In this document: piece after piece, positions 1-13,079 of the stretch
How positions within the stretch are numbered: the stretch's first letter is position 1
How the letters are laid out: each line of letters begins with the position of its first letter
From: Pyrodictiaceae archaeon
GTDB taxonomy: Archaea > Thermoproteota > Thermoprotei_A > Sulfolobales > Pyrodictiaceae
Length of the DNA stretch: 13,079 bases
Direction of reading: 5' to 3'
Assembly: GCA_027033675.1 (NCBI GenBank)
Contig: JALVKZ010000128.1
Span: forward strand, 1-13,079
Program-made: the position numbers and the translations under genes
Notes under the pieces: generated by a model
Database searches by the model: none
Seen by the model: the letters and a program-made list of their open reading frames with translations, nothing else
Told to the model about the DNA's origin: nothing

Positions 1-563
1 AACCAGTACGGGCTCCTAGGCTCGACAACCAGTATCATGAAGGGCGTAGCGCTGTAAGTAACCCTGCTGATAACGAGCCTATGCCTATCGCTACGAAACC
101 TCGGCGGCCTAAAATCTAGCTGCTCGCCAGGCGCCGCGAAGACCCCGGTTTCCCGCGAGTACAATAGCTCCCGTGACTCTCTCCCATCCATGCACTTCAC
201 GACGTAGTTGTCCCTACCCCTCTCGAAGACTGTATCAAGGCCTCTCTCCGAGCAGCTACTAAGCACCGAGAGCACCAGTGATACTGCACGAGGCGTCCAG
301 AACCCCTTGGGAACCTTGCCATAGCTAGGTAGCCGTAACGGGGGAAGAAGGGAGACGTAGCCGCTGCTGCTCCGGGCCACTGGTAGCAGGGACGAGAACC
401 TTGACTCGGCTAACCCGCTACTAATACCGTGGCCTAGCGTAGCTGCGGCCGCCATTATTGCTGCATGCAGGCTCGTTGAGTCTATATAGCCCTCGGCTAA
501 GCTAGGAGAATAGCTACTAAACTGGGACTTAAACTCAACTACAGCGTACAGGTAGCGCCTCAT
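1..563 (-). CDS. csm4: Csm4-like type III Cas5 (RAMP), partial, runs off left edge
   Basis: This is the N-terminal 187 residues of a RAMP protein; the C-terminal part, including the Gly-rich loop, lies outside the window. Features seen are an initial beta strand (RRYLYAVVEFKSQF, about 2-15), the helix STSLHAAIMAAAATLG (about 29-44) where Csm4 proteins carry their first helix, a motif FSSLLPVARSSSGYVSLLPP (about 57-75), and RLVISRVTYSATPF (about 162-175), which resembles the R-x-x-I-x-R-x-T segment of Csm4. In the family, Csm4 (type III Cas5) caps the crRNA 5' handle and contacts Cas10. I chose ATG at 563; an in-frame TTG at 584 is the alternative. The ATG lies 29 bases past the csm3 stop, so the two are co-transcribed. 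Family assignment rests on motif resemblance and operon position; a Csx10-like or III-D Cas5 is the main alternative. Confidence 0.72.
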   Translation of the reverse strand, partial: MRRYLYAVVEFKSQFSSYSPSLAEGYIDSTSLHAAIMAAAATLGHGISSGLAESRFSSLLPVARSSSGYVSLLPPLRLPSYGKVPKGFWTPRAVSLVLSVLSSCSERGLDTVFERGRDNYVVKCMDGRESRELLYSRETGVFAAPGEQLDFRPPRFRSDRHRLVISRVTYSATPFMILVVEPRSPYW

Positions 564-592
564 CGATAGAGAAGAGGTGCTCAAGGCCTCAA

Positions 593-1585
593 CTACCCTT
601 TACTAGGGCATGCAGCCGCGACAATGTCGCCACTGGGCTCTAGCTCGGCAACAGGCGTGGGTTTGCCTAGTAGCTCTCTCCCCCCGAGACCCGGGGCCTC
701 GTAGAACACTAGCCGCTCTACACTAATCCCGACCCTACCGTAGCCACGGCTAGTAGCAGCACCGAGGCCAAGGGACTCGGCGAGCCTAAGCCCACGGATA
801 ACGAGGCCCAGGTTCCTCTCGACACACAGCTGCTTCTCGCGGGGACAGGGCTCGCAGTCATTGTCGTAGACTAGTAGCTGTATACGCCCCCTGAACACTA
901 CCCCGGGCTTAACGCGGACCGAGAGACGGGGATCCGCTGCAGCAGTCAACCTATCGATCCTGTTCTCGGGCTTCTCCTCCAAGAAGTCGCTCAGATAAAC
1001 TGGGCGCTCAAGGCGTTCATAGAGCTCACACACATAGCCCTCGTCCGGGTACAGGTCCTCAACGTAGAGACGCGTAGGAGCAAGATACTCCATTAGCTTC
1101 TTGGCACTACTCTCTTCGAGCTGCAGTTTGCCCCGGAGGTGCTGTATGTAGTTGAAGCTTGCATAGCCAAAGACCTCGTCTACCGGGCACCTATTCACGA
1201 CATCCTCCATGAACTTGTGGCGCGCCTCCACTTCATCAACATAGCTACGGGAGAACGCATCGATGCTACGGACGTGCTGGAATACCTTGCCATCAGTAGT
1301 GACGTACTCCATCCCGAGAGCCTGCTCTAAGAGACTCCTCATACGCCCCTTCAGGCTAGAGCCGGGGATATACGGTACCTCTACACTAAGCCTCTCATCG
1401 CCGCACTCGTAGTAGCGCTCAATACTCATAGGCCATACATCGGCGCCGCCTATACTTAGCTGGGCTTGGCTAGGCTTACGGATAAGGAGACCCGTCTTAA
1501 CCCTAACACTTAGCTCGAACTCGTAGAAACCCCGGAGAGACCTCTTTAGAGAGAAGAACCCAGGCTGACTCACGGGGCACCTCAC
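593..1585 (-). CDS. csm3: Csm3-like Cas7 backbone subunit of a type III effector complex
   Basis: This 330-residue RAMP protein would form the repeated crRNA-binding backbone of a type III complex and cut target RNA every six nucleotides. Hallmarks in order: IGGADVWPM (45-53), where Asp49 matches the catalytic Asp of Csm3 (Asp33 in bacterial Csm3); PYIPGSSLKGRMRSLLE (71-87); CPVDEVFG (133-140); APTRLYVEDLY (169-179); EEKPENRIDRLTAAADPR (203-220); and the Gly-rich GLGAATSRGYGRV (273-285). It is longer than typical Csm3 (about 220-260 aa), mainly through insertions around 95-130 and 140-168 and a C-terminal tail after about 298. A CEPCPREKQLC segment (244-254) could bind metal or form disulfides. 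The start is GTG at 1585. A second GTG at codon 5 is preceded by a good GAGGTG motif and may be the real start. It follows the upstream gene by 14 bases. Confidence 0.9.
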   Translation of the reverse strand: MRCPVSQPGFFSLKRSLRGFYEFELSVRVKTGLLIRKPSQAQLSIGGADVWPMSIERYYECGDERLSVEVPYIPGSSLKGRMRSLLEQALGMEYVTTDGKVFQHVRSIDAFSRSYVDEVEARHKFMEDVVNRCPVDEVFGYASFNYIQHLRGKLQLEESSAKKLMEYLAPTRLYVEDLYPDEGYVCELYERLERPVYLSDFLEEKPENRIDRLTAAADPRLSVRVKPGVVFRGRIQLLVYDNDCEPCPREKQLCVERNLGLVIRGLRLAESLGLGAATSRGYGRVGISVERLVFYEAPGLGGRELLGKPTPVAELEPSGDIVAAACPSKG

Positions 1586-1599
1586 CTTCCTTGCTATTC

Positions 1600-2079
1600 T
1601 TAACGCGACCTTACACCCACTATTAGGGAGTCGAACACGAGACGAGCCCTCCGCGCAACACGCCTAACACTGGGGTCGCCGCTGCGTATTAGCTCGGCAA
1701 GCATCCTTACAACATCAGCAACGATGTCAGCTAGGCACCTACTAATCTGTCCACGCTCAGCCTGATAACGAGCAAAGACCTCGAGACCAGCAAGCTCAGC
1801 GAATATCTCGCTGCCATGCCTCCCTTGCGCGATACGATCGAGGATACTAGTAGCGGCCTCATGTATTCTGCGAGCAGCCGAGGGAGAGCTAGCTATACTG
1901 TTTAACCGCCCCCGTAAGATATACTCAACTAAGTTAACCTCATTGACCCCGCTATCGCTAAGGTACTGCATAGTTCTATCAAGCCAAAGGCCTCTACAGG
2001 ACCGTGTCGAGTAATAGCTTGTGGTTTGAATAGTTGAGCTCAAGGACGGAGGCACCGCTACTTTATAGTCTTTATCCAT
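1600..2079 (-). CDS. Probable type III small subunit (Cas11/Csm2-like)
   Basis: This 159-residue protein, directly upstream of csm3 and csm4, is predicted to be almost wholly alpha-helical after residue 35. Helices run about 48-58, 65-85, 90-110 and 113-132, with a basic C-terminus (RRVARRARLVFD, 139-150). The segment FAELAGLEVFARYQAERG (93-110) resembles the helix near the end of Csm2. In known complexes Cas11 subunits form an inner filament that contacts the target RNA. Size, helical content and the order small subunit-csm3-csm4 support the call; sequence similarity alone is weak. The reading frame stays open upstream to 2463, but that part looks like the shadow of the plus-strand gene and crosses the promoter, so I start at ATG 2079. 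A TATA-like CATTATAGG about 27 bases upstream would give an almost leaderless mRNA. Confidence 0.55.
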   Translation of the reverse strand: MDKDYKVAVPPSLSSTIQTTSYYSTRSCRGLWLDRTMQYLSDSGVNEVNLVEYILRGRLNSIASSPSAARRIHEAATSILDRIAQGRHGSEIFAELAGLEVFARYQAERGQISRCLADIVADVVRMLAELIRSGDPSVRRVARRARLVFDSLIVGVRSR

Positions 2080-2080
2080 A

Positions 2081-2096
2081 GTATAAATATTTATAC
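2081..2096. promoter_or_regulatory. Palindromic TATA element between divergent operons
   Basis: GTATAAATATTTATAC is a perfect 16-base palindrome in the divergent gap between the type III operon and the ATPase operon. For the plus strand it is a good archaeal TATA box: transcription would start near 2113-2118, giving a leader of about 40 bases to the GTG at 2156. For the minus strand it sits only 2 bases from ATG 2079, so a start driven by it would fall inside the annotated N-terminus (near 2060), with GTG 2055 as the next usable codon. The palindrome could also be an operator. Confidence 0.6.
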
Positions 2097-2103
2097 TTCC
2101 CAG

Positions 2104-2112
2104 CCTATAATG
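2104..2112 (-). promoter_or_regulatory. TATA-like box for the type III operon
   Basis: On the minus strand this reads CATTATAGG, with its centre about 29 bases upstream of the ATG at 2079. That is the distance expected for a leaderless or near-leaderless archaeal transcript. It is a weaker TATA match than the palindrome at 2081-2096, so either may be used. Confidence 0.4.
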
Positions 2113-2155
2113 GGGGGCCAAGATAGCGGGGATAGGAATAGAGAACAGGGACTCA

Positions 2156-2677
2156 GTGCCCCTATTCGTATACAGCTGCATAGAAGAGCCCAAAGTCATA
2201 GGGGAATATCCCGCAGAGTGTAGTATAGAGGTGAAGCGGGGACTCACAATACTCGAATGCTGTACATTAGAGAGTCTCGTAGAGCTTGTATTGAGGCTTA
2301 TTGAGGCCGGAGTCTCTCCTCTCACGCCGAGCACGTGGATATGTGGCCCTAGTAGAGAGCTAGGCTTGGTAGTCTTCACGGAGCCTTCTCGCTGCCCGGA
2401 GACTAGCACTAAGAGTATAGTGGTTGGGTGCCGCAGCCTAGCCCCCTGTACCAGGGCATACACTGTGCTAGAGGGTGGTAGGAAGTTCTCGGTAAAGCGT
2501 AGAAGGGGCTGCTTTACTGCATCGATAGAGCTAGTGAGGGATATATCACTTCAGCAAGTTATACATGATCTCTTTATGAGTGAAGGGCTCCTTGGAGAGG
2601 TATTTATTCTTTCCCCGCTAGTTATTCCCTGGTTTCCCCGAGGAAGAGGATTATGGGTAAATGGTTGCTTGAAGTAA
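2156..2677 (+). CDS. Unrecognised Cys-rich protein, first gene of the ATPase operon
   Basis: I do not recognise this 173-residue protein. It starts at GTG 2156, the only usual start codon in this frame after a stop at 2108-2110. It contains ten cysteines (8, 22, 35, 36, 63, 80, 92, 98, 119, 171; about 6%), a hydrophobic helix around 38-51, a basic patch KRRRGC (114-119) and a Pro/Gly-rich C-terminus. No signal peptide or membrane segment is evident. The next gene's ATG lies 25 bases before this stop in another frame, and the promoter at 2081-2096 is well placed, both of which support it being real. The opposite strand is also open here, but that reading lacks a promoter. Translational coupling suggests that it works with the ATPase, as a partner, inhibitor or specificity subunit; this is inference. 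Confidence 0.6.
   Translation: MPLFVYSCIEEPKVIGEYPAECSIEVKRGLTILECCTLESLVELVLRLIEAGVSPLTPSTWICGPSRELGLVVFTEPSRCPETSTKSIVVGCRSLAPCTRAYTVLEGGRKFSVKRRRGCFTASIELVRDISLQQVIHDLFMSEGLLGEVFILSPLVIPWFPRGRGLWVNGCLK
2640..2650 (+). promoter_or_regulatory. Ribosome binding site for the ATPase gene
   Basis: GAGGAAGAGGA contains two GAGG motifs, 9 and 3 bases before ATG 2653. It lies inside the end of the preceding gene. It supports both the chosen start and independent re-initiation on the ATPase coding sequence. Confidence 0.7.
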
Positions 2678-3825
2678 CGGGCTCTAAGCTTTTCGGCGAC
2701 GATTTCAAACTAGAGGTAGACGATTATACGGTGATTGCTGGCTTTAACTCCGCGGGTAAGTCGATAATAGCTAGAACAATATATGCTCTTGCCCGCCGGG
2801 ATGTAAACGAGCTCGATAGACTGTGGCGGAAAGACAATGCCTCTGTATGCCTACATACATTACGCGGCAACCTATGCTACGCAGGTGGAGAAATTAGGGG
2901 AGATCTAAGAGGCGATATTGTAGCGTACATGGCGCCTGATTACCGTATAGTGCTGCGCCAGAGCCTCGCCATCGAGAAAAGCATCAGCGAGAACCTTGGG
3001 AGAATGGAGCAAGATGTTGACACGTTATGCAACATGATTGACTCCTTATCCGTGTACATCCCCGAAGAAGAATATGATAGGATACAGGGGCTTAGAGAAC
3101 TATGTAGGAACCTGCAGCAACACATTAGGGATCACGGTAATGTTCTAGGGAGCTTTATGCGTCCATTACTCGCTGAGGCACTGGTCTATAAAGCTAGGGC
3201 TAATCCTTGGCTACTTAAGAGGCTCTTAGATGCCCAAGAAGAGAGCGTTGAGAGAGCAGTAGATGCACTTAATGAGCTACTGGGAGACATTGACGAGAAA
3301 ATATCCGCTGAGGACCTAGTTCCCCTAAACGTTGACGTAACTATATCGGGTACGAGACACGTAGGAGGACCCGCGTTATCAATAGATACCGAGAACCTTA
3401 CCCTCTTAGTACAAGATAATAGGCTTGCAGCCACGGTGCCCCCGGACATAGTCTCCTCGTCGGTAGCATCCTACTTGTTGCTAAGCATTCTGCCATATGT
3501 CTTTGCACAGAGAGAGGATACAATAGTCGTGGTTATAGAGGAGCCCGAGGAGGCGTTTTCTCCTCCACAACAATTCTTATTTGCGTATATCCTTGGTAGA
3601 TACATAAGGCTGCTACAGGGCAGCGGGAAGGAAGTTAAGGTTGTCTTAACTACTCACTCGCCTTACATCGTTAGTGGTGCATCCCGCTTCGACGCCACGA
3701 TATATTATGCGCGCTTCAGCCGCGCAAAGAGAGCCTTCTACTACGAGCAGAGGCCCTATGCCGCCTTTGCTCTCGCTGAGGCACTAGCTCTCTCGCAGCG
3801 TCCCTTGGAGGAAGAAGAGCCTTGA
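2653..3825 (+). CDS. SMC/RecF-like ABC ATPase (AAA_15/AAA_21/OLD-type)
   Basis: This 390-residue protein has all the ABC-ATPase landmarks of the SMC/RecF/OLD group. The Walker A is GFNSAGKS (30-37). A signature-like segment SSSVASYLLLS (268-278) follows. The Walker B is IVVVIEEPEEAF (291-302), with Glu296 where Asp is usual and Glu297 as catalytic base. The H-loop is VLTTHSPYIVSG (331-342). The middle, about 100-215, is charged and helical with coiled-coil character, and much shorter than in SMC. There is no C-terminal TOPRIM, so it is not a full OLD or GajA protein. Stand-alone ATPases of this size are the sensor/motor part of several prokaryotic immune systems (for example AriA of PARIS, PtuA of Septu), usually beside an effector gene. 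Here the next gene overlaps by 4 bases. Function in this locus is inferred. Confidence 0.9.
   Translation: MGKWLLEVTGSKLFGDDFKLEVDDYTVIAGFNSAGKSIIARTIYALARRDVNELDRLWRKDNASVCLHTLRGNLCYAGGEIRGDLRGDIVAYMAPDYRIVLRQSLAIEKSISENLGRMEQDVDTLCNMIDSLSVYIPEEEYDRIQGLRELCRNLQQHIRDHGNVLGSFMRPLLAEALVYKARANPWLLKRLLDAQEESVERAVDALNELLGDIDEKISAEDLVPLNVDVTISGTRHVGGPALSIDTENLTLLVQDNRLAATVPPDIVSSSVASYLLLSILPYVFAQREDTIVVVIEEPEEAFSPPQQFLFAYILGRYIRLLQGSGKEVKVVLTTHSPYIVSGASRFDATIYYARFSRAKRAFYYEQRPYAAFALAEALALSQRPLEEEEP
3807..3811 (+). promoter_or_regulatory. Ribosome binding site fixing the TTG start at 3822
   Basis: GGAGG lies 10 bases upstream of TTG 3822, inside the end of the ATPase gene. It is a full Shine-Dalgarno core and supports initiation at the TTG that overlaps the ATPase stop codon. 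Confidence 0.7.
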
Positions 3826-4514
3826 CCAACCCTAATAGAGACGTTACCGAGAACTACGTCTACATCATTGACCTAGATGTATTTAACTTGTGCAATAAGC
3901 ACAGCGACCCCGCAGCACAGGACTGCAGGATTGATAAGAACTATGCTCGTGAAGCCTGCGAATCACTCGACAAAGTATTCGGTAGCGGGGACTGGTCGAA
4001 GGGGTTATGGAAACTAGTAAGAGCTATTAATGCATACAATGCAAGGTCTTCTAAGGGCTATGGTGCTGCAATAATTTTTCCCAATCTCGGAGAAGCTGCT
4101 TCGTCTGCTGGGTTAGCGGCCCGTTGTCTCGGAAGAGTTCAGTTTATTTGCAAGGATTGTCTTATCGGAAGGATATTGTCCTTGCTGAAAGAATCAGTGT
4201 CACAGAGAGACGCTATTTGCTTGTTTAATCCTCGTATTAGGTGCAAGGATCTCGACAACATGGTTCGGCGGTGCTATAGGGAGGCCGGGCATAGCGATAA
4301 GTGTCGGCGAGTCATCAGTGCCATAGAGTGCATAGTAAATGAGCTCGGGAACATGTATGGGAGACTTCGTGCCGATATCGGTGTAGCTGTTTTCTGCGAC
4401 AGGGAGGGCTCGCTGTGTAGCAGTATAATAGAAGAGGGTGACAGGACTAAGATTAGGTATATCGAGCTAGGCAGCGGCCTTGGCACCGTCTGTATAGCTC
4501 ACAGCGATGATTAG
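3822..4514 (+). CDS. Unrecognised very Cys-rich protein, partner of the ATPase
   Basis: This 230-residue protein starts at TTG 3822, overlapping the ATPase stop by 4 bases, with a GGAGG site 10 bases upstream. I do not recognise the family. It has 14 cysteines (24, 35, 46, 102, 110, 113, 133, 141, 151, 161, 170, 192, 199, 224; about 6%), including CKDC at 110-113. The N-terminus YVYIIDLDVFN (12-22) is a hydrophobic strand ending in Asp17 and Asp19, as in the first strand of PIN-like or other metal-dependent nuclease/phosphatase folds. Further strands are likely at GAAIIFPN (81-88) and IGVAVFCDREG (186-196), so an alpha/beta fold with acidic strand ends is plausible. By analogy with ATPase-plus-effector immune systems it could be the effector, but no complete catalytic motif is visible. 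It ends 9 bases from the convergent gene. Confidence 0.75.
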   Translation: MTNPNRDVTENYVYIIDLDVFNLCNKHSDPAAQDCRIDKNYAREACESLDKVFGSGDWSKGLWKLVRAINAYNARSSKGYGAAIIFPNLGEAASSAGLAARCLGRVQFICKDCLIGRILSLLKESVSQRDAICLFNPRIRCKDLDNMVRRCYREAGHSDKCRRVISAIECIVNELGNMYGRLRADIGVAVFCDREGSLCSSIIEEGDRTKIRYIELGSGLGTVCIAHSDD

Positions 4515-4523
4515 TGTATTGCT

Positions 4524-4943
4524 TTATTGTAGGGGTTCTAGCTCTACTTCTAGCCTTTTTATCTTCATCCATCTCCTGTGCTCGATGACTCTTATGGCTT
4601 TGTCGCCTGGTGCCTTGAGGTAGGTTCTCCTATCCGGTTTTTCCTGGACCAGTTTCCTTGCCTCCTCCTCGTCCTCTGTTACGGCAACGGTGTCCATCCA
4701 CGCTATTATTAGGTCTATGCCTGCTTTCCTTGCCTCCCGGAACAGCTTGTATAGGAGCGCTAGTGGTAGTGCCTGGATAACTATGTATCTCACGTCGTTC
4801 CTGGCCCACGTCTCTACGAGCTGTGGTATTTCGTCCTCTTCTATCTTCGCTACTTGCTCGATCGCGTCTATGCCTTTCTCCCGGAGCTCCTCTACCTGGG
4901 CCGGCATCATCCTATGTCTTCCAATGACTATTGCCCTAGGCAT
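4524..4943 (-). CDS. Small Rossmann-like protein of unknown function
   Basis: This 139-residue protein appears as a beta-alpha-beta unit. A strand PRAIVIGRHR (2-11) is followed by helices 15-23 and 35-47. A strand VRYIVIQALP (51-60) leads into helix LALLYKLFREARKAG (61-75), then strand IDLIIAWMDTVAV (76-88), an acidic helix (89-102) and a basic, strand-rich tail (about 103-139). I do not recognise a named family. A nucleotide- or ligand-binding role is possible from the fold alone. ATG 4943 is preferred over GTG 4955 because GGAG lies 4 bases upstream. It is convergent with the Cys-rich gene (9 bases apart) and divergent from the gene at 5040, sharing an A+T-rich promoter. That arrangement would fit a regulator of the neighbouring pair, but there is no helix-turn-helix that I can see. 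Confidence 0.75.
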   Translation of the reverse strand: MPRAIVIGRHRMMPAQVEELREKGIDAIEQVAKIEEDEIPQLVETWARNDVRYIVIQALPLALLYKLFREARKAGIDLIIAWMDTVAVTEDEEEARKLVQEKPDRRTYLKAPGDKAIRVIEHRRWMKIKRLEVELEPLQ

Positions 4944-4947
4944 TCTG

Positions 4948-4951
4948 CTCC
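4948..4951 (-). promoter_or_regulatory. Ribosome binding site deciding the ATG at 4943
   Basis: On the minus strand GGAG lies 4 bases upstream of ATG 4943 and inside the longer GTG-initiated reading. It favours the shorter protein beginning MPRAIVIG. Confidence 0.5.
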
Positions 4952-4990
4952 ACACCTGCGCCGAGAAAACTGTCTAGAAGAATGTGTAAA

Positions 4991-5003
4991 GTATTTATAT
5001 TTT
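4991..5003. promoter_or_regulatory. Bidirectional TATA element between 4943 and 5040 genes
   Basis: The plus strand reads GTATTTATATTTT and the minus strand AAAATATAAATAC; both are good archaeal TATA boxes. Expected minus-strand initiation is near 4970, about 27 bases before ATG 4943. Expected plus-strand initiation is near 5022-5028, 12-18 bases before TTG 5040. The 8-base core TATTTATA is the same, in the same orientation, as half of the palindrome at 2081-2096. Confidence 0.65.
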
Positions 5004-5039
5004 GGCTAGGGAGCATTTAAGAGAAGAGGCTGCAGAACG

Positions 5040-6290
5040 TTGCCTACCCCGAGTAATGACTGCACCATACTGGGGTGCAGAGTAGCCTACTGTGCGCCAT
5101 CGGTAACGATCCTTCCTCCCCAGCTCGCCTATGTTCTCAGCGAGGCACTGCGCGAAATAGACCTAGTAGTAGAGCTTGATTGCGGGAACGGTTTTCGTAC
5201 ATATTTCCTAGTAGAAGAGGTCAGCGAAGCCAATGAGGCCGAGAAGGTTGCGGCACGCGATCTCGACCTAGGGCTTAGCCCGGTCTACATGCTCCAGAGC
5301 AAGCATATGAGTGTTTTCAATAAGCAGCTGCCCCTAGGGGCCCCGGTAAGGCTGCCGACTAAATCCTTCAAGCAGCTCCTTAGGTGCTGCCTACAAAGAA
5401 ATAACGCGGAGCAAGGAGAGGGGCTGGAAAAAGCCCTCATGGATCAGTTCTTCGAGGAGGCCAAGTGCCGCCCGGAGCTAGTCAACGCGCTACACTACAT
5501 GCTGCTACTCAGTAATAGTGAACTCTCTGAGCGCGCTATGAATGACTTAGCCGAGATACTCCGGTCTGGTCAGCGAGGCAGCCAAGGCGACGATGCATGC
5601 AAGGATATTCTCAGGCTCCACGAGTGCATCCCCAGCGATTCCATCCGAGACGCTGTGGAGGAGGCCAAGCAAATCAACGAGACTGATGAAGGAGTGCTAG
5701 TGATTCTACCGCAGTACCGTAGAGCCACTAGCTCGTCACCCACGGAGGAAAAAACCATACGCGGAGCAGTAGACGTGGCAGCTGGGCTGGCGAAAGCACT
5801 GAGAGTATTAAGGATACTCATAGCCTCTAACGAGCTCATAAAAGAGTCAGCGGAGACAATAGAGTCCGAGCTAAGAAATAGACACCATATGGAGGCATGC
5901 GTTGCCGGTATCGATTCGGAGTACAGAGGAAACAAGCTAGGAGATCTTATAGCAGGTTATAAGCCGAGGGCAGTGTATCTCTTACCCCTCTACGACTACT
6001 CCAAGCAACTCCTAAACAATATTATATGCACCTTGACGAGGACACAAGAAATAGGGCATATATGCTTCATACTCATGCCCGAAACCCTCATAGCGCTAAG
6101 TAAAACGGGTGATCAAAACACTCACAATATAGTAAGGATGTTCAAGTCGATGAAGGCGCCTAACTACGTAAAAGAGGTAATTGACGAGGAAGGACAGCTC
6201 AGAGTACCACAGAACACTTCGTACCATTTATACATCAGGTGTCTAAGCCGCGACAGCGACGCCTTGCAAAGAATCGCTTCCTGTAAATAA
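5040..6290 (+). CDS. Unrecognised 416-aa protein, first of a two-gene operon
   Basis: I cannot place this protein in a family. It starts at TTG 5040 behind a TATA element and an AGAAGAGG stretch. An N-terminal region of mixed strands (10-90) is followed by a helical, charged middle (about 110-215). The C-terminal part looks like a Rossmann-type alpha/beta domain: strand EGVLVILPQYR (217-227), helix 239-253, strand LRVLRILIAS (254-263), then PRAVYLLPLYDY (309-320) and HICFILMPETLIAL (340-353). The strand-Pro-Leu/Met-Pro patterns recall ligand-binding Rossmann domains such as CARF but lack a diagnostic motif. There are 14 cysteines (3.4%), including a CC pair (116-117). No membrane segment is seen. 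The following gene starts 15 bases after the stop, so they are probably co-transcribed and may form a complex. Confidence 0.75.
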   Translation: MPTPSNDCTILGCRVAYCAPSVTILPPQLAYVLSEALREIDLVVELDCGNGFRTYFLVEEVSEANEAEKVAARDLDLGLSPVYMLQSKHMSVFNKQLPLGAPVRLPTKSFKQLLRCCLQRNNAEQGEGLEKALMDQFFEEAKCRPELVNALHYMLLLSNSELSERAMNDLAEILRSGQRGSQGDDACKDILRLHECIPSDSIRDAVEEAKQINETDEGVLVILPQYRRATSSSPTEEKTIRGAVDVAAGLAKALRVLRILIASNELIKESAETIESELRNRHHMEACVAGIDSEYRGNKLGDLIAGYKPRAVYLLPLYDYSKQLLNNIICTLTRTQEIGHICFILMPETLIALSKTGDQNTHNIVRMFKSMKAPNYVKEVIDEEGQLRVPQNTSYHLYIRCLSRDSDALQRIASCK

Positions 6291-6305
6291 TGTAGACTCG
6301 GGGGC

Positions 6306-7739
6306 GTGGTTGCGTTGGAGCAGCTTCTCCTAGGGATCAAGCCCAGTGGGGGAAGCTTCTTCGGGTATCTGTTAAAGTATCTCAGCTATACGAGGTATAA
6401 CCTAGGATACGAGGATAGCGGAGATGATGCTATCTATATCGGCCATATCGCCCTTGGCTCGAGGGTTGCTAGGCTACTCGGCCTAAAGCTAGGTCATGGC
6501 AAAGGGGGCTCCGGCGCCATAGCTCTTAATAGGGCCCTACTATATCTCCGGGCTTATCCCCTTTCCCTGCTGCCGAGCGACACGGTGATAGCGAATATAA
6601 TCTCTAAACCCCTTGATACAGTTTATGATCCGCGATACATGGCTATGGCTCATTTATCTGTGCAGAAGAACCTAGCAGCTATACGCAGAGATGGTATCAG
6701 CGCTGCCCTGGAGACCCGTACCAGTGAGCTAGGCGGCGACCCCTCAGCAGCCCTTCTCGCAACAGCCCTGCTCTCCGGCCTAACTCGGCAGGGTTTCGAG
6801 CTCCATGCAGCAGCTGCTCAGAACCTAGTAGCTGGCTACATACTCGGGGAAGTAGGGGTAGATGCCGCCGCCAAGGGCATTACAGCCCTATTCATAGACC
6901 TCGTCATCTACTACCTAGTAAACATACTCCACTATAAGCGGGGAGGAACACTAGGCGGCGAGCTACTACACAGCATAGCCGTAGACCCTATCAAACAACT
7001 AGTAGATAAAATAGATGAAGCGCCCAGTGCCGTCCGGCCCGAGGAACTAGATGCAACAAAATACCTAGAGCACATATATTCTATAGCATCATCGATGTGT
7101 TCACATCTCTTAAAAACACTGGGAGAAATACCGTTAATAGATAGAGACAGGGATCCCAAGGAAGTACTAGAGAAGATCACACATTTACTGGAAGAACTTA
7201 AGAACGAGCTACTAGAGATCGAGAAGACAATATACAAACAAGTACTCGATTTCCTCAGAGTAAAGGATTTCCAAGTACAGGATACTAGGACTGAGCCCCT
7301 TATCGGGAGACTAAGCATACTCATACAAAGACTAAGCGACATAGCCGGGGACGATTGCATCCCCGTAATAATGCTCACGGGCCAGTCATCGGGCTACGTG
7401 GTCAAGCTACTCTGGAGGATGCTAGGCAGAGAAAAACCACTATACATCGCGTGGACACCGTACACGCTCTTAAACCTCCAGAACACGGTAGATATACTCG
7501 ATATAATGAATAAAAAGGATAAAAACAGGGGCAAGAATTACTACATATTCCCTCTAACACACAGCGACCTCTACCTAAACGAGTACATGGGGAAACAAGT
7601 CGCGAAACACATCAATAGAGCCTCGGGCAACGGAGGCAAGCCAGTCTGCGCCCTACTACAGGGAGCCTCGCAGACAGTCTACCCCTTCGCCATAGGCCTC
7701 GCAGAGAACACAAACGGCATAAAGATAAAAATAATATAA
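6306..7739 (+). CDS. Unrecognised 477-aa protein with possible C-terminal CARF-like domain
   Basis: This protein starts at GTG 6306 (TTG 6315 is an alternative) and I do not recognise the family as a whole. The N-terminal half is Ala/Leu-rich and helical, with a Gly-rich loop LGHGKGGSGA (62-71) and one hydrophobic stretch (about 191-208) that could be a buried helix or a single membrane segment. A strongly charged coiled-coil-like helix covers about 284-318. The C-terminal 125 residues look like an alpha/beta domain: strand plus turn IPVIMLTGQSSG (352-363), PLYIAWTPYT (378-387), YYIFPLTHS (412-420), and VCALLQGASQTVYPFAIGLA (447-466). The last segment resembles the strand-GGT/S-helix element of CARF domains in Csm6 and Csx1 proteins. 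No HEPN R-x4-6-H pair was found by eye. It is likely partnered with the gene 15 bases upstream. Confidence 0.75.
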   Translation: MVALEQLLLGIKPSGGSFFGYLLKYLSYTRYNLGYEDSGDDAIYIGHIALGSRVARLLGLKLGHGKGGSGAIALNRALLYLRAYPLSLLPSDTVIANIISKPLDTVYDPRYMAMAHLSVQKNLAAIRRDGISAALETRTSELGGDPSAALLATALLSGLTRQGFELHAAAAQNLVAGYILGEVGVDAAAKGITALFIDLVIYYLVNILHYKRGGTLGGELLHSIAVDPIKQLVDKIDEAPSAVRPEELDATKYLEHIYSIASSMCSHLLKTLGEIPLIDRDRDPKEVLEKITHLLEELKNELLEIEKTIYKQVLDFLRVKDFQVQDTRTEPLIGRLSILIQRLSDIAGDDCIPVIMLTGQSSGYVVKLLWRMLGREKPLYIAWTPYTLLNLQNTVDILDIMNKKDKNRGKNYYIFPLTHSDLYLNEYMGKQVAKHINRASGNGGKPVCALLQGASQTVYPFAIGLAENTNGIKIKII

Positions 7740-8315
7740 TACTCTGCCGCGCACGAACCCTATACTACCAATTACCTCTGTTTTCAGCCTTGCTCCCTAA
7801 ACCCGCATCAGTCTATACAAGCCCCTATACGTTTCCTCATAATTAAACTCCTATCCCGCTCAGCCTGCTTGATTTTCAGAGGGTCTCCGTATTTTGGTGC
7901 GCTTTGGCCGCGCTCTATGGTTATCCTTATACCACTCTTTTCACGTCCCCCCCGAGAAACTCGCTTCTGGGAAGTTCGCATGCCTTGTCTTAATGGAAGG
8001 AGGAACATAATGGTAGGCTAGGTCACTGAAACTTATGCCTCGTGTAAGCCTTCTCTCCTCGGAGAGACAGAAATGCCTAATCCTTTTCTTCTTCGTCTCT
8101 CTGCCATCAGGGCGTGTCCCCATCTCCTGGGAGGAGCACAGGTATATGGCCTTAATTGTCATGCTCTACTATGTGAGCCTTGTTCACAGCTACGAAGCGG
8201 TTTGTATTGAGGTACAGCTAGAGGGGCCTTATTGATACTGCTGTGAGGTCTTTGGGGCCTCTTCTCAACCATGTCTGCTCCATGATGGTTTGGGACATGC
8301 ATGATGTCTGCACTG
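7740..8315. other. 576-base gap without a convincing gene
   Basis: This region lies between the convergent 6306 gene and cas3''. Only three short overlapping open frames exist (66-73 codons), with unlikely compositions and no matching start signals. A strong GGAAGGAGG (7995-8003) precedes ATG 8010, but that frame stops after three codons. Small dyads occur at 8053-8066 (CTCTCC-TC-GGAGAG), and 8-base direct repeats (ATGTCTGC) at 8271-8278 and 8304-8311. No CRISPR repeats, tRNA or transposon ends were seen. It may be a decayed gene, a transcription termination zone for both flanking operons, or the site of a non-coding RNA. Confidence 0.6.
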
Positions 8316-9182
8316 CTAGAAGATCGTGGAGAATATATCTATTTCTTGTAATGTTTGTTTGAGTGTTTTTCTCCCGCTTGTCGCTATTTCTCTTAGCCTT
8401 GTTGCCACGTATTGGCCTGTCTCCTGCCCGGTTGCTCCTATGCTGTATTGGAGTTCTCTGATTACTTGTTTGGTGTACCCTCGGGGCCTAGGGTCTTGGG
8501 CTCTCTTGTCTAGTGTTGTTGCCGTTAAGTAGTCTGCTAGGCTTAGTAGTCCTGTTAGCGCTGAAGCGGTTAGTGAGAGCAGTTCCCTTCTCACCCTGTA
8601 TGTTTTTTGAAGAGTTCTTGCAGCATTCTCTACTGTTTGGGGTCCTTCTAGGGGCTTGTAGTCCTTGACAAGTCGTCGGAGAAAAAAGGCTATTATCTCT
8701 GCCTCTGGGCATCCATCCTCTAGCTCGCTTGCCAGTATCAGTAGTTCCTTACTACTTAGCCCCGGCACCATCTGCCTATGTGCTCGTGCTACGCAGTAGC
8801 CGAGCGTCCTCATGGCGTGATGATGTCTCAGCGCCGCTGTAGCGGCAGCTACTGCTAGTAGCTTTCCTCTCCTCGCGTCATCCGCTATGGTCTGAGGCGC
8901 TAGCAGCGCATCAACTACTTCATAGACTATTTTTCCCGCTACTAGCTCGTGGCAAGTAAAGCTTGGATGCCCCCTCCTAACGGTTACCTGGAACCTCTTA
9001 GCAGCTTTACCAGCGTCGTGTAGGAGGGCGGCAACCCCGGCAGCAATGAGTACGTGGCTAGGGCTGGCTCTAAGCCTCCCAGCTATGACTCCTAGCTCCT
9101 CACTGAATAGGCCTAATAGGAGCCCAGCCACGTTACAGCTGTGCTCCCCGAGCCTTACCCCGTTCCAAGCATAGAGAGCCAT
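8316..9182 (-). CDS. cas3'': Cas3'' HD-domain nuclease, type I-A
   Basis: This 288-residue protein carries the HD metal-dependent phosphohydrolase motifs of the stand-alone Cas3'' nuclease, which degrades the displaced strand of DNA targeted by Cascade. Visible motifs are GEHSCNVAG with His14, ALLHDAGKA (52-60) with His55-Asp56, FTCHELVAG (75-83) with His78, and ALRHHHAMR (117-125) with His120-122. All expected metal ligands are present, so it should be active. ATG 9182 places the first His near the N-terminus as usual. The cas3' stop is 5 bases upstream, and separate helicase and nuclease polypeptides are typical of type I-A. It is the last gene of the operon in transcription order. It is slightly longer than many Cas3'' proteins because of its helical C-terminus. 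Confidence 0.92.
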   Translation of the reverse strand: MALYAWNGVRLGEHSCNVAGLLLGLFSEELGVIAGRLRASPSHVLIAAGVAALLHDAGKAAKRFQVTVRRGHPSFTCHELVAGKIVYEVVDALLAPQTIADDARRGKLLAVAAATAALRHHHAMRTLGYCVARAHRQMVPGLSSKELLILASELEDGCPEAEIIAFFLRRLVKDYKPLEGPQTVENAARTLQKTYRVRRELLSLTASALTGLLSLADYLTATTLDKRAQDPRPRGYTKQVIRELQYSIGATGQETGQYVATRLREIATSGRKTLKQTLQEIDIFSTIF

Positions 9183-9187
9183 GGCTA

Positions 9188-10915
9188 TCAGGCCACGAGC
9201 CCTACTCCTTCAATATATGATTCTTGTCTCACAACGGGTAAGAGCTGGTAGCCTCGGAGCCCGTGCTTCCTCGCGACCTCGCCTAGGAGCCGGGGGTAGC
9301 GGTCTAGAAACGCTTGGCAGCTCCTAAGCATTCCCAGTAGCTTCTCTCGGGGAACTTTATCCTCAATAATTTCCACTCTATCGCCGTAGGCTATGAGTAC
9401 TATCCTGCACTCTTCATTGCTGCAGTCGAGTATCTTCTCGGCTCTCCTCCTAGCTAGTAGGGATAGGCTAGCTTCCAGGTGATCGTAGCTGTCTTGTCTC
9501 TTGGGCACGGCGAGGGTTATGAGTGAGGAATCTCTGACGAGGCTGCAGTAGCGCTGAAGAAGCGTCATCGTGGGCCTTGATGAGGTTCTGGAGATGCTTG
9601 TCAGGCTTAGGTAGAGGAGATTGGTATAAGCTGCGTAGCCTGGCCTAGGCTTTTCCCCAGCTCTGTCCTCAGCTTGCTCGACGAGTACTCGAAAACTCCT
9701 AAGCCTCTTATCACGATTCTCTCTGTCGTCTAGGAGCCTCCACTCAATACCGTCTCCCACCTCTTCTAGTTCTCTTAGCAACGACAATGCATCTCTAGCC
9801 ACGGTACCGTAGGGATGGAGCTTATCTGGCTCATAGATTATGACCTCGGGTGGCTCCTCTCTGCACTTCTCGAGGGTCTCTCTGCTCCTACAAAGCCTCC
9901 CAGCTCTCTGTGCAAGGCTACTCGGAGCGGCCGCCTCCGTCACTAAGGCCTCTGCGTCAACGTCTACACCTGCCTCTATAACCTGTGTAGCAACCACTAC
10001 CCTGGCCCTGGGCATCCTTCCTACTGCTGCTTCACGGTCCTTCTCGCTAAGCCTTCCATGAATAAGGACGACGCTTTCCCTGCCCAGGCGCTCGGCGACG
10101 TATTTGTAGACCTCTATGGCGGAGCTCACAGTGTTTACGCTGATCAGTACCCTTCTACCAGTCTCGGCGAGCTCTATGGCTCTCTCCCAAGCAGTGCCTT
10201 TATCGACAAGGCTTGTCCTCCAGTCAAGGCTCTGTTCCTCCTCGTACTCCCTGTCACGGATAGATGTGCATCCCTCGTGGATGCAGCAGGTTCTACAAAC
10301 AGCCATTATCTTGCTACCAGTCCTCCTTGCCACATCCCTCATCAAGCTCCGCGGCATAGTGGCTGTTTCAATTACTACTGGTAGCTCTGCTCGCGCGAAG
10401 ACACTTAGCACGAGGCCTAGGAAGAGCCTTGAGAGAGGCGGCTCCTCAGCCCATGGCTCAGCATATAGGTGGGCTTCGTCGAAAACCGTTAGCGAGGAAA
10501 AAATAGCTGCCCGGGGAAGCTCATAGTGACCCTCGAATACGTCTCTGAGGACACCGCTGAGCTCGACCACGGGTAGGCGGGCAAGATTAAGGGAGAAGCT
10601 ATCAAGAGTGGTGACAACTGCTTGGCGCAGCATGAAGCCAGAGTAGTCCTCGCGGCTAATCTCGAGCCCGGCCAGGAACCCGGCCCTTTCGCCTAAGAGG
10701 CTCTTAAGGAACTTGAATTGCTGCTTAACAAGAGCCCTTAGAGGTAGCACATGTATTACTCGGGCAGCGATACCAGTGTCCCTGCCCTCCTCTAGGAGCC
10801 TGGGAATGGACTTGCTCTTGCCATAGCCTGTGGGGGCCACAAAGATAACGCTAGATCCGCTGCGAACAACTCTAGCCAGCTCATCTATACCGGGACGCTC
10901 CCAAGGCTTCCTCAA
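9188..10915 (-). CDS. cas3': Cas3' superfamily 2 helicase, type I-A
   Basis: This 575-residue DNA helicase unwinds target DNA for the Cas3'' nuclease. Superfamily 2 motifs occur in order: Walker A VAPTGYGKS (26-34), LPLRALVKQQ (57-66; motif Ia), TTLDSF (102-107), FDEAH (145-149; motif II), ETATMPRSL (183-191; motif III), VVLIHGRLS (282-290; motif IV), VVVATQVIEAGVDVD (306-320; motif V) and LAQRAGRLCR (334-343; motif VI). There is no fused HD domain. A Cys cluster CRTCCIHEGC (207-216), at the start of the second RecA-like domain, could bind zinc or form disulfides. Translation begins at TTG 10915, 6 bases past the cas8a stop, so it depends on the operon transcript. Confidence 0.95.
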   Translation of the reverse strand: MRKPWERPGIDELARVVRSGSSVIFVAPTGYGKSKSIPRLLEEGRDTGIAARVIHVLPLRALVKQQFKFLKSLLGERAGFLAGLEISREDYSGFMLRQAVVTTLDSFSLNLARLPVVELSGVLRDVFEGHYELPRAAIFSSLTVFDEAHLYAEPWAEEPPLSRLFLGLVLSVFARAELPVVIETATMPRSLMRDVARRTGSKIMAVCRTCCIHEGCTSIRDREYEEEQSLDWRTSLVDKGTAWERAIELAETGRRVLISVNTVSSAIEVYKYVAERLGRESVVLIHGRLSEKDREAAVGRMPRARVVVATQVIEAGVDVDAEALVTEAAAPSSLAQRAGRLCRSRETLEKCREEPPEVIIYEPDKLHPYGTVARDALSLLRELEEVGDGIEWRLLDDRENRDKRLRSFRVLVEQAEDRAGEKPRPGYAAYTNLLYLSLTSISRTSSRPTMTLLQRYCSLVRDSSLITLAVPKRQDSYDHLEASLSLLARRRAEKILDCSNEECRIVLIAYGDRVEIIEDKVPREKLLGMLRSCQAFLDRYPRLLGEVARKHGLRGYQLLPVVRQESYIEGVGLVA

Positions 10916-10921
10916 GGCTCC

Positions 10922-12064
10922 TCAAGCCACGCTAAGCACCTGGCTCGTAGCTGCCTCAGCTACAGCGCTAGCTGCTCGGAGAAGCGAGTCACGCACAGCC
11001 TTCACGTTCTTACACGAATTGCTCTCAGCGGCTCCTCGGAGGAGACGAGCACAGTCATAGAGATACACGTTGTTACCAGTAATGGTGTAGAGGAAGAGCT
11101 TGCCCAGGCAATGCCCAGTAGCCGTTTTCCCTGGATCCTGCTCTCCTCCACAAAGGCCCTGGGAAACTGCTCTACGGAGTAGCATGCTTAGCGCCGCTAA
11201 TGGCGCCGAGCCGAGAACGCATAGGGGCTCAGAGATAGAGAGAGGGGATAACTCGTTAAGTATAGGCCTATTCCCCGCCTCAGATACATTAGCGAACAAT
11301 AATTGGTCAAGAACACTACTAGCTCCACACAGCTCGCCCGGTTCAGCCCCAAGTAGTTCTGCTACGAGACTTGCAACGTAGAGTACTAGTAGTACATCAA
11401 GGCTGATAGGTAGCTCAGCGACCCCTCGCCTCGCCAGTAAGCGGCCAAGAGGCTCGAGACGGGTACCGCTCCCCCTCATGGCGGCGACAGAGTAGAGCTC
11501 CATAACGGCCTCGAGGTCCTCTCTACTAGCCTCAGACAAGGGGATGAGGTACACACCGTTATCGCCTACTTTTCCAAGCTTGGATAACAAACCGCCTACA
11601 AGGGCTAGGGCGAGAGACGAGGGCGCGGCCTTTCCAATCTTGTCGCCGAGCGGCTTACCGCCCCTCATTGTTCGTGCCTTCTCGAACAAGTTGAGCTTCA
11701 TGAGGCCCAGGGGCACGACTTGTGGCTTCTCAGGATCCAGGTCCCCATTAATGAGTTGTTCAGCGACCAGTTGTGTTGCTTTGTCCCACTTCTTCTCGTC
11801 TTTTGACAATTTCCTGCCAACCAGCTTCTCCACCGGCTTATAATCGTTGCCGAACATTCGGGGGGCTTGTACAAGCTTATCGGATAACAAGTCCACGGCT
11901 ATGCTATAGGCAGTGGACAAGGCTTCTATGAAGTCGTCTCTGCTCTTGAATAAGACCCTATCAGGCTCTATCGCTTCCACCAGGTAGGGTGGGGCAATGG
12001 ATAGTGCTAGTAGCTGGAAGCTTCTACCCATCCACCCTGGCGGGAAGAGCTCGACACTATACAA
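10922..12064 (-). CDS. cas8a: Cas8a large subunit of type I-A Cascade (Csa4-like)
   Basis: This 380-residue, mostly helical protein lies between cas5a and cas3', where type I-A operons carry Cas8a (Csa4/Cas8a2). In known systems Cas8a helps recognise the PAM and recruits Cas3. Size and position fit, as do the N-terminal pattern (SVELFPPGWMGRSFQLLAL, 3-21), the Lys/Glu-rich segment KPVEKLVGRKLSKDEKKWDK (76-95) and the very Leu/Ala-rich C-terminal helices. Large subunits diverge fast, so the call rests mainly on context. Translation starts at TTG 12064, 3 bases past the cas5a stop. Eight cysteines sit in the second half, clustered around 244-350, perhaps as stabilising disulfides. Confidence 0.78.
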   Translation of the reverse strand: MYSVELFPPGWMGRSFQLLALSIAPPYLVEAIEPDRVLFKSRDDFIEALSTAYSIAVDLLSDKLVQAPRMFGNDYKPVEKLVGRKLSKDEKKWDKATQLVAEQLINGDLDPEKPQVVPLGLMKLNLFEKARTMRGGKPLGDKIGKAAPSSLALALVGGLLSKLGKVGDNGVYLIPLSEASREDLEAVMELYSVAAMRGSGTRLEPLGRLLARRGVAELPISLDVLLVLYVASLVAELLGAEPGELCGASSVLDQLLFANVSEAGNRPILNELSPLSISEPLCVLGSAPLAALSMLLRRAVSQGLCGGEQDPGKTATGHCLGKLFLYTITGNNVYLYDCARLLRGAAESNSCKNVKAVRDSLLRAASAVAEAATSQVLSVA

Positions 12065-12067
12065 TGC

Positions 12068-12916
12068 TTAGGCACCTCTAGTAGCTATGCACAAACCCTT
12101 ATCCGTGTCCAAGCAATAAGCTACAGAGTCTTGGGGCTCGAACACCGCAGGCTCGCTAGGCGGGAATAACAAGACACGGGTTGAGAGTGGACTGCTGGGT
12201 ACAAAGTAGTCCTCATAGCTTGGCTGAAGCATTTCCCCACAGAAGATCCTGGGCTCTAGCCTCCACATAATAATAGGCTTGACAGCCTCTATACTGATAG
12301 GCCTTACTAGGCCCCTTTCCTGGTAGAGGATCGACGAGAACTCCTTCCTCAAGGCCTCTGGCTCGCCCACCCAGCTATCGAGAACAGATACTAGGCCCTC
12401 CTTGGATCCAAGCCTCCAGCCAGCACGCGCTATCTGCTCGGCTAGCTCCTCGATACTCGCATCAGCCTCCTCTGCCAGGCCCTCGGCATCAACCACTATA
12501 CTTAGGTAGAGCCGGGCCCCAGGCCCATACACGGCTCCAAGGGCTTGCACGCTCCAGGCATAGGGCTCCCATTCCTTCCTCTTCCTCTGATACGGCAAAG
12601 ACAATACCCTTGTCACGTCACCGTGGAGACTAAGGGCTACGGGGCTTTCTGGGTCTAAGCCAGCGGCGGCAGCCAGAGTGTGCTTTGCGAGGAGACCTGC
12701 TGGGCTGCAGTGCTTCGCTAAGCCGTACTCCGGGAGCCCTAGGAGCCTCGCTAATGGCTCGGCATAGAACCCGATAATGGACGTGGGCGGGGGTAATGGT
12801 AGTGAGGGCTGAGCGGCTGATAGCCCAGCATAACGTACACTAAACCCCCAGGCTAGCTCAGCCTTGCTGACAATCATGAGTGGTTTCAAGGCGCTGCTAA
12901 CCCTCCCTAGGAGCAC
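12068..12916 (-). CDS. cas5a: Cas5a RAMP subunit of type I-A Cascade
   Basis: This protein of up to 282 residues has the Cas5 N-terminal signature: a first strand with aromatic residues (AELAWGFSVRYAG, 19-31) followed by SAAQPSLPLPPPTSIIGFYA (33-52), which matches the P-S-x-x-x-P-P-P-T-x-x-x-G pattern of type I Cas5. Cas5a binds the crRNA 5' handle and, with Cas7, forms the Cascade backbone. Translation may start at GTG 12916 or at ATG 12877 (residue 14); the conserved part begins just after the ATG, while neither start has a clear ribosome site. cas8a follows after 3 bases. The 75-base gap upstream contains a T-run and a weak TATA-like GCATTAAAGC (12944-12953), so cas5a may begin a separate transcript. 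Confidence 0.9.
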   Translation of the reverse strand: MLLGRVSSALKPLMIVSKAELAWGFSVRYAGLSAAQPSLPLPPPTSIIGFYAEPLARLLGLPEYGLAKHCSPAGLLAKHTLAAAAGLDPESPVALSLHGDVTRVLSLPYQRKRKEWEPYAWSVQALGAVYGPGARLYLSIVVDAEGLAEEADASIEELAEQIARAGWRLGSKEGLVSVLDSWVGEPEALRKEFSSILYQERGLVRPISIEAVKPIIMWRLEPRIFCGEMLQPSYEDYFVPSSPLSTRVLLFPPSEPAVFEPQDSVAYCLDTDKGLCIATRGA

Positions 12917-12943
12917 TGGCGTCGAGTAAGACTATGTAGCAGT

Positions 12944-12958
12944 GCTTTAATGCAAAAA
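12944..12958 (-). promoter_or_regulatory. T-run and weak TATA-like site before cas5a
   Basis: On the minus strand TTTTT (12954-12958) follows the stop of the upstream gene by 33 bases and could terminate part of its transcripts. It is directly followed by GCATTAAAGC, a poor TATA-like site about 30 bases before GTG 12916. Together these may set the ratio of upstream Cascade subunits to Cas5-Cas8-Cas3. Confidence 0.35.
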
Positions 12959-12991
12959 CGATGAGGGCACGTTATTCACTTATGTGTGTAT

Positions 12992-13079
12992 TTAGCCTAG
13001 CTTCTCTGTTATTCTCTTCTTTGCCTCCTCTATCACATCTATATAATTGCTCTTACCTATGATCTCTACTCCCTTATCC
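12992..13079 (-). CDS. C-terminal end of the gene upstream of cas5a, possibly Cas7 (Csa2)
   Basis: Only the last 28 residues (DKGVEIIGKSNYIDVIEEAK followed by KRITEKLG) and a TAA stop lie in the window. The fragment forms a short strand and a Lys/Glu-rich helix. In type I-A operons the gene before cas5a is usually cas7 (csa2), sometimes csa5. The fragment is compatible with the helical C-terminus of Cas7, but there is not enough sequence to decide. Codon use matches the neighbouring cas genes. Confidence 0.5.
   Translation of the reverse strand, partial: DKGVEIIGKSNYIDVIEEAKKRITEKLG

Follow-up and report, generated by a model that had tools for sequence, protein, structure and literature searches.

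We analysed a 13,079-nucleotide stretch of DNA from a Pyrodictiaceae archaeon (contig JALVKZ010000128.1, positions 1 to 13,079; hereafter the window), in which three overlapping genes on the plus strand, open reading frame 1 (ORF1), an ATPase gene and ORF3, lie within a CRISPR island. A first-pass annotation of the sequence had described an ATPase between two Cys-rich proteins, with overlaps of 25 and 4 bases, and this arrangement was confirmed. The setting also proved correct, as cas genes lie on both sides of the trio: part of csm4, csm3 and csm2 on the left and type I genes on the right. The trio diverges from csm2-csm3-csm4, with csm2 nearest. A near-identical island, L023 (record JALVYZ010000237.1), carries the whole trio together with csm5 and cas10. 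This record is titled 'bacterium'; its genes are close to those of the archaeal window and it is likely a mislabelled bin.

Three overlapping genes divergent from a csm operon

The genes and motifs around the trio are as follows.

3–584, minus strand: 5′ part of csm4, which runs beyond the window edge; 87% identity to L023:4923-5930
593–1585, minus strand: csm3 (TIGR02582, 93.9 bits, cut-off 90; PADLOC Csm3, E = 3.9e-39)
1600–2055, minus strand: csm2, 151 amino acids (PADLOC Csm2, E = 1.2e-5; 86% identity to a 151-amino-acid gene of L023)
2080–2097, no strand assigned: palindromic TATA-like box, AGTATAAATATTTATACT, identical in L023
2156–2677, plus strand: ORF1, 173 amino acids, GTG start; probably a diverged member of a family termed Y below
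2653–3825, plus strand: ATPase, 390 amino acids, ATG start; by sequence an AAA_15/OLD-type ABC ATPase (Pfam PF13175), with relatives that adjoin csm2
2740–2763, plus strand: presumed Walker A of the ATPase, GFNSAGKS, placed from alignments and the Thermofilum pendens sequence
3538–3552, plus strand: presumed Walker B, EEPEE
3649–3666, plus strand: presumed H-switch, TTHSPY
3822–4514, plus strand: ORF3, 230 amino acids, TTG start, Cys-rich; in the slot of the X and cas_RFas partner genes described below

The csm4 gene of L023 is complete (335 amino acids), and a csm4 profile match was also found at the equivalent site in L094. An antisense ORF of 287 amino acids (1600–2463) is likely csm2 with a false upstream extension, the start at 2055 being shared with L023. 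The TATA-like box lies between csm2 and ORF1, where it could serve both csm2 on the minus strand and the trio on the plus strand, for which an own promoter had been proposed. Internal ribosome sites had been proposed as well, and GGAGG-like stretches can indeed be read by eye upstream of the ATPase and of ORF3.

The reading frame and start of each of the three genes are conserved in L023, with amino-acid identities of 80, 86 and 75% for ORF1, the ATPase and ORF3, respectively. The ratio of nonsynonymous to synonymous substitution rates (dN/dS) between the two islands was 0.47 for ORF1, 0.14 for the ATPase and 0.22 for ORF3, alongside 0.13 for csm3 and 0.18 for csm2, making ORF1 the weakest of the trio in this respect. 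The Cys content of ORF1 (5.8%) and ORF3 (6.1%) was reached by 4 and 3, respectively, of 435 background ORFs, a set from which ORF1 and L023 copies had not been removed.

ATPase relatives at the csm2 end of csm operons

By its sequence, the ATPase is an AAA_15/OLD-type ABC ATPase. It matched Pfam families PF13175 (AAA_15; E = 4.3e-13, 50.1 bits against a cut-off of 32.1) and PF13304 (AAA_21; E = 1.1e-9, 39.3 bits against a cut-off of 27). PADLOC returned 85 matches, led by AriA (E = 5.5e-14) and followed by PD-T4-4, NsnB, GajA and PtuA among others; the 25 matches listed are all ATPases. In the motifs that we take to be Walker B and the H-switch, E296, E297, P298 and E299 and the residues TTHS are invariant across nine rows of the ATPase alignment. 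The presumed Walker A reads GLNSTLKS, GMNSTLKS or GFNATLKS in relatives; K and S are kept and the usual glycine is absent in most. Among solved structures, the ATPase profile matched a chain of the OLD family (E = 2.1e-7) and, weakly, chains of AriA (E = 0.0017); two further matches are unlikely to be genuine.

A protein search that scored the 7,993 candidates sharing most words returned seven proteins including that of the window, and hence at least six others, three at 83–89% and three at 28–36% identity. When a profile was run against 214 genomes of the order, 15 matched at E = 1e-8, six of them with long matches (window included); the remaining nine comprised one fragment (G147), two members of a distant branch adjacent to type III-D genes (G154, G016) and six short matches to other AAA proteins. 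The search of the class matched 9 of 229 genomes and brought no new genome, and a draw from the phylum matched 2 of 398 (window included), adding G324, whose partner protein is identical, except at its start, to a protein named for Thermofilum pendens. A contig scan yielded five loci (L023–L027).

All seven other long relatives that came from the ATPase searches with visible surroundings adjoin a csm operon at its csm2 end (L023–L027, L032 and L052; the window is excluded and the metagenome proteins P0006–P0011 are not counted), and one of these, from Thermofilum pendens, belongs to another class of archaea. The ATPase diverges directly from csm2 in L025, L026, L027 and L052. In L023, ORF1 lies in between, as in the window, and in L024 and L032 the order is ATPase, partner, csm2, all on one strand. 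The exception among long relatives is the G147 relic, which lies apart from type III genes. At L031 (8318–9245, minus strand), fragments of the ATPase and of the partner gene X lie side by side with type I genes near, likely a cassette relic, and no csm match was found along the 19-kb stretch.

Approached from the other gene, a csm2 profile matched 19 of 211 genomes of the order, including all six with long ATPase matches (hypergeometric probability 2.4e-7, or 1.6e-6 for 6 of 7 with the G147 relic, kinship not corrected; the 211- and 214-genome draws are not exactly the same set). The flanks of csm2 led to three further ATPases, in the Sulfolobaceae-like genomes G196, G197 and G191. The cassette of G191 (L109 6947–9542) is parted from csm2 by ∼2.7 kb of transposase-like genes, recognized by eye. 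The ATPase was thus seen near csm2 in at least 9 of the 19 csm2 genomes; stretches of 5.6–18 kb from G067, G165, G128, G207, G037 and G012 held neither ATPase nor X.

The control examined 15 loci, of which L005 and L019 are one place. None of the nine distinct loci with other AAA proteins (L004, L005/L019, L006, L007, L017, L018 and L020–L022) had a csm match in ∼3 kb. Outside these nine, L014 has csm2 and csm3, and the III-D branch (L003/L016, L015) and a relic (L013) have none on short flanks. The control is blind to type III-D genes and to genes beyond ∼1.5 kb, because longer stretches of L003/L016 and L015 hold III-D genes. In the distant ATPase branch (L033 6692–8463, L050 625–2569), a Cys-rich partner of 238 or 250 amino acids is encoded before the ATPase, and both loci adjoin type III-D-like genes.

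Together, the ATPase recurs at csm and cas10 genes across two classes, the adjacency looked for in a type III-A accessory. Of the roles that the first-pass annotation had offered for the flanking proteins, that of ancillaries to the type III complex next door is supported by the recurrence of ATPase relatives at csm2.

Partner genes, family Y and the signalling context

A small partner gene lies directly behind the ATPase, with an overlap of 4 bases in the window and 11 in L052 and gaps of 13–24 bases in L024, L026, L027 and L032. A coherent family, X, fills this slot in L024, L025, L026, L027 and L052, with a cut copy in L049; its profile matched 5 of 211 genomes; in four of them the match adjoins the ATPase, and in the fifth it lies next to a Y gene where the contig ends. 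In Sulfolobaceae-like genomes the partner is cas_RFas of PADLOC (PDLC01064; E = 3.4e-44 in L106, 3.5e-34 in L105 and 2.8e-7 in L109). The partners of L032, L033 and L050 are other genes.

ORF3 matched nothing in Pfam or PADLOC to E = 1 and gave a single chance-level match in NCBIfam (E = 0.12); the search of solved structures returned nothing for ORF3 and nothing significant for X or Y. Three other proteins, all close relatives, were found by protein search, and the ORF3 profile added one weak match in 211 genomes (E = 0.0029). Sequence comparison did not join ORF3 to X (hhalign E = 0.37, with 64 of 150 shuffles as good; HMMER also failed). Nor did it join ORF3 to cas_RFas, as the window ORF3, its L023 copy and P0004 gave no match to the model at E = 5, or to the III-D partners of L033 and L050. 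Among the other partner pairs tested, which leave out cas_RFas against L032, L033 and L050, only L033 versus X stood out a little from its shuffles (E = 0.032, with 2 of 150 equally good). The pairs L033–L050, L032–X and L050–X were unconvincing (12, 29 and 98 of 150 shuffles as good, respectively).

Of 11 partners compared, a set without L105 and the cut copy of L049, 10 begin with an N-terminal hydrophobic strand ending in Asp, as do 19 of the 435 background ORFs, a pattern chosen post hoc after viewing the sequences; ORF3 shows it. Within a set of 471 ORFs, the motif D[LI]x3-6Cx1-2Hx0-2P, also post hoc, is confined to X and ORF3 and is missing from the L024 X. We judge that ORF3 may belong to the same family as X, with the balance just short of even. 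The slot itself appears to evolve fast or to be swapped, as expected of a part under viral attack. Within X, D8 and E94 are the only invariant acids. An AlphaFold2 model of the T. pendens X has five strands (predicted local distance difference test score 65.6, predicted template modelling score 0.63), and structure searches with this middling model gave no clear fold. The NYN model PF14626 was matched by one of six X members at E = 0.0012, below its cut-off. A PIN/NYN-like nuclease in the partner slot is thus conceivable, if rather doubtful.

ORF1 had no match in Pfam or PADLOC to E = 1 and none in NCBIfam. As the first-pass annotation had noted by eye, neither flanking protein resembles DUF4435/AriB or HNH partners, and the same result was obtained in Pfam, NCBIfam and PADLOC. 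A candidate family for ORF1, Y, follows X in L026, L027, L049 and L052 and in L024 stands before the ATPase on the opposite strand. It also occurs beside csm genes without the ATPase on stretches L066, L067, L068, L069 and L071; in L070 it lies behind Csx1, in a genome (G150) that does carry the ATPase. A Y profile search matched 12 of 211 genomes at E = 0.01 and left 10 credible loci; nine share a contig with csm genes, and the tenth (G049) is at a contig end beside X. The two dropped matches were on contig C332 of G000 (inside a 717-amino-acid frame) and at 1.75 Mb in G191 (two stops, E = 0.0018), the latter a different place from that of Y in L109. This profile overlooked Y in G191, G196 and G197, where one rebuilt from more members recovered it.

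ORF1 diverges from csm2 in the same place as Y in L066, L067 and L068. The similarity in hhalign was weak (E = 4.8e-4 to 1.7e-3, program-reported probability 16–32%), and 1 of 300 shuffles had a higher hhalign score. The hidden Markov model score lay above all 1,581 shuffles reported of 2,000; with an earlier profile, 1 of 500 was higher. Genome-wide profile searches of 211 genomes did not connect ORF1 and Y in either direction. The ORF1 profile matched 17 of 211 genomes at E = 0.1 including its own, the other 16 being weak, many with stops (best E = 6.8e-4). In a genome of the window's family (G012), a gene in ORF1's place beside csm2 (L107 2280–2780, plus strand) is 23% identical; no ATPase was found on this 5.6-kb contig, and adding the gene did not strengthen the ORF1–Y similarity. 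Place and similarity together make ORF1 a probable, if diverged, Y protein, a kind that accompanies type III-A operons.

The searches and the neighbourhood survey that had been proposed for the trio gave divided answers. The ATPase was assigned to the AAA_15/OLD type, and ORF1 and ORF3 remained without a library family, ORF3 without a solved-structure match and ORF1 weakly Y-like in profile–profile comparison. The ATPase–partner pair recurs near csm genes; for ORF1 and ORF3, close copies turned up in near relatives alone. Homologues that never co-occur had been named as refuting evidence; the ATPase and a small partner do co-occur in the loci seen, and Y, likely the family of ORF1, also occurs without the ATPase.

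The cas10 gene of the window's genome lies on contig C117 and is 90% identical to that of L023. Its product keeps GGDD, and its sole HD pair, at residue 49, is outside the LLHDxGKP setting; HD sites of the LLHDxGKP type are present in Cas10 of L024, L028, L029 and L033. With GGDD and without such an HD site, signalling by cyclic oligoadenylate is therefore possible. Csx1/Csm6 genes occur at related loci (L024/L002, L028, L067–L071). The Thermofilum-type Cas10 of L052 (2700–5528, minus strand) has AGDD, as against GGDD in five others aligned and in the window genome's own copy, and cyclase dependence may therefore vary.

To the right of the trio lie three unnamed genes and then type I genes for a Cas3 HD part, the Cas3 helicase, Cas8a and Cas5a; a general repeat search found no CRISPR array among the window repeats. 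The gene at 4524–4955 (minus strand, 143 amino acids, no family) is 96% identical to its L023 counterpart and has the lowest dN/dS of nine genes compared (0.07). Those at 5040–6290 and 6306–7739 (plus strand, 416 and 477 amino acids) are 81% and 85% identical in L023 and had no credible match in Pfam, NCBIfam or PADLOC; the C terminus of the 477-amino-acid protein looks CARF-like by eye.

Favoured reading, alternatives and known systems

It is very likely that the trio is a type III accessory, and the ATPase and its partner quite probably form a functional pair. Our fuller reading, in which the trio would serve the type III-A CRISPR system beside it as an accessory cassette composed of the ATPase, a variable-slot partner and a Y-like ORF1, is offered tentatively, with a little under even chances of being right as a whole.

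A different role beside the same complex would be RNA processing, in which a partner nuclease trims CRISPR RNA (crRNA) or clears target RNA and the ATPase loads or clears it. The NYN match of one X member (PF14626, E = 0.0012) and the strand-Asp start are in keeping with this, as is the precedent of a CRISPR-associated NYN nuclease of Bacteroides, for which a like role has been proposed (PMC11346440). However, type III-A operons of the same taxonomic order without ATPase and X on stretches of 5.6–18 kb (G067, G165, G128, G207, G037, G012) indicate that crRNA production does not in general depend on the pair, and the invariant acids of X are D8 and E94 only; we regard this role as unlikely. ORF1 and ORF3 could instead be unrelated newcomers, a new partner having been recruited by the ATPase in this clade, which would leave the ATPase as the sole element common to this and the other cassettes. 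The restriction of ORF3 to close relatives (three other proteins and the one weak match at E = 0.0029 in 211 genomes) and the lack of demonstrated homology between ORF3 and X speak for such an origin, whereas the slot, overlap and N-terminal pattern in common with other partners, and the position of ORF1 in the divergent place of Y with weak profile similarity, speak for kinship. Recruitment of newcomers seems to us a minority possibility, although a more serious one than RNA processing.

The first-pass annotation had likened the trio to stand-alone defence modules, and an abortive-infection system of the PARIS or Septu kind might have come to lie in a CRISPR island by chance. The PADLOC ranking of the ATPase, with AriA first and PD-T4-4, NsnB, GajA and PtuA behind it, fits this idea, but the repeated csm2 position in two classes does not, nor do two flanking proteins devoid of DUF4435/Toprim or HNH matches in the three libraries. 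With no AriB- or PtuB-type partner found, and with all long relatives of visible surroundings at type III genes save the G147 relic, the likeness to such a module found no support, and a stand-alone system of this kind is highly improbable. Least probable of all is a housekeeping ATPase for DNA repair or the cell cycle (archaeal Cran1, RecF/SMC types) that lies here by chance: archaeal OLD-family ATPases with non-defence roles do exist, as a passage of PMC12796447 describes, and the ATPase profile matches a solved OLD-family chain, yet its scattered occurrence, with matches in 15 of 214 genomes at E = 1e-8 of which six are long, and the recurrence at csm2 make this extremely unlikely.

For the accessory-cassette reading, a working mechanism can be outlined. 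ATP-bound dimers of the AriA and PtuA group hold or fire a partner. By analogy, the ATPase could dimerize upon ATP binding and hold its partner, forming a dock, gated by ATP, for an effector or regulator that can be swapped. Once bound to its target, Csm would give a signal that alters the state of the ATPase, whereupon the partner, likely the acting or restrained part of the cassette, would be released or fired at nucleic acid of the virus or the host, with Csx1-type effectors working in parallel. A constant ATPase and a changing partner, at the csm2 end of an operon whose Cas10 has GGDD, are in keeping with a switch tied to the activity of Csm; the full switch mechanism nevertheless stays on the doubtful side. 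Y might help the Csm complex itself, which is the more likely role because it occurs without the ATPase.

The accessory effectors known from type III systems mostly detect cyclic oligoadenylate or S-adenosylmethionine–AMP via CARF, SAVED or similar domains. As a speculation that we consider unlikely to hold in full, type III systems of Thermoproteota may have a third arm that does without CARF domains, in which an ATPase at csm2 serves as the dock for interchangeable partner proteins, all fired by one ATP-gated switch on target finding by Csm. Just as speculatively, up to five partner kinds might share its one slot: X, cas_RFas, ORF3, the gene of L032, and those found with type III-D in L033 and L050. 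These kinds mostly failed to align in the pairs tested and nearly all open with the strand ending in Asp, so that on this view they would be different toxins or nucleases. As the cassette is present in Thermofilum pendens and in Sulfolobaceae-like genomes, these ideas should be testable in cultured archaea.

The trio had been called possibly undescribed, which is true in part. ORF1 and ORF3 match no PADLOC model, but the Sulfolobaceae-like equivalent is already cas_RFas there, and the cassette kind is not new because a PADLOC model for one partner branch exists. As far as the searches went, the novel elements are its extension to Desulfurococcales-titled and Thermofilum genomes, the pattern seen in the partner slot, family Y, and the assignment of the window trio to this kind. 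The passages of PMC11229360, PMC11346440, PMC12988326 and PMC12669027 name no such cassette; we do not claim absence from print.

Compared with known systems, the trio shares with PARIS AriA-AriB an AAA_15-type ATPase with the EEPE Walker B and THS switch, AriA being its best PADLOC match; unlike PARIS, it lacks a DUF4435/Toprim AriB match and is linked to type III genes. The ATPase similarity extends to Septu and retron PtuA-PtuB (PtuA1, E = 3.6e-7), from which the trio differs in that neither ORF1 nor ORF3 has a PtuB-type HNH match in Pfam, NCBIfam or PADLOC. The PADLOC system ATPase-Toprim_I-B has an OLD-like ATPase (E = 1.4e-5) and a model name pointing to a CRISPR subtype, but no Toprim match was found in the window trio, and the system beside the trio is type III-A. 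The Bacteroides type III-B NYN nuclease would be a similar small type III accessory nuclease if X proves PIN/NYN-like; however, X has two invariant acids, not three, and no ATPase is mentioned in the passage of PMC11346440 that describes it. Csx1/Csm6 effectors with CARF and HEPN domains are accessory genes of the same loci, whereas ORF1 and ORF3 match no PADLOC model and the 25 listed of the 85 ATPase matches are ATPases.

In cas_RFas (PDLC01064, 'cluster 17 associated'), where 'RF' may stand for RecF, a small gene again lies directly behind a related ATPase and next to csm2 (L105, L106); the L109 copy is shortened, with a transposase-like gene between it and csm2. Its model is matched neither by ORF3 nor by X (L052, L025 and P0017 compared), nor by the partner genes in L032, L033 and L050, and divergent orientation was seen only outside the cas_RFas loci. 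If the accessory-cassette reading is true, a cassette of an OLD-type ATPase and a changing partner would tie the ATPase–effector pairs known from PARIS and Septu to type III CRISPR.

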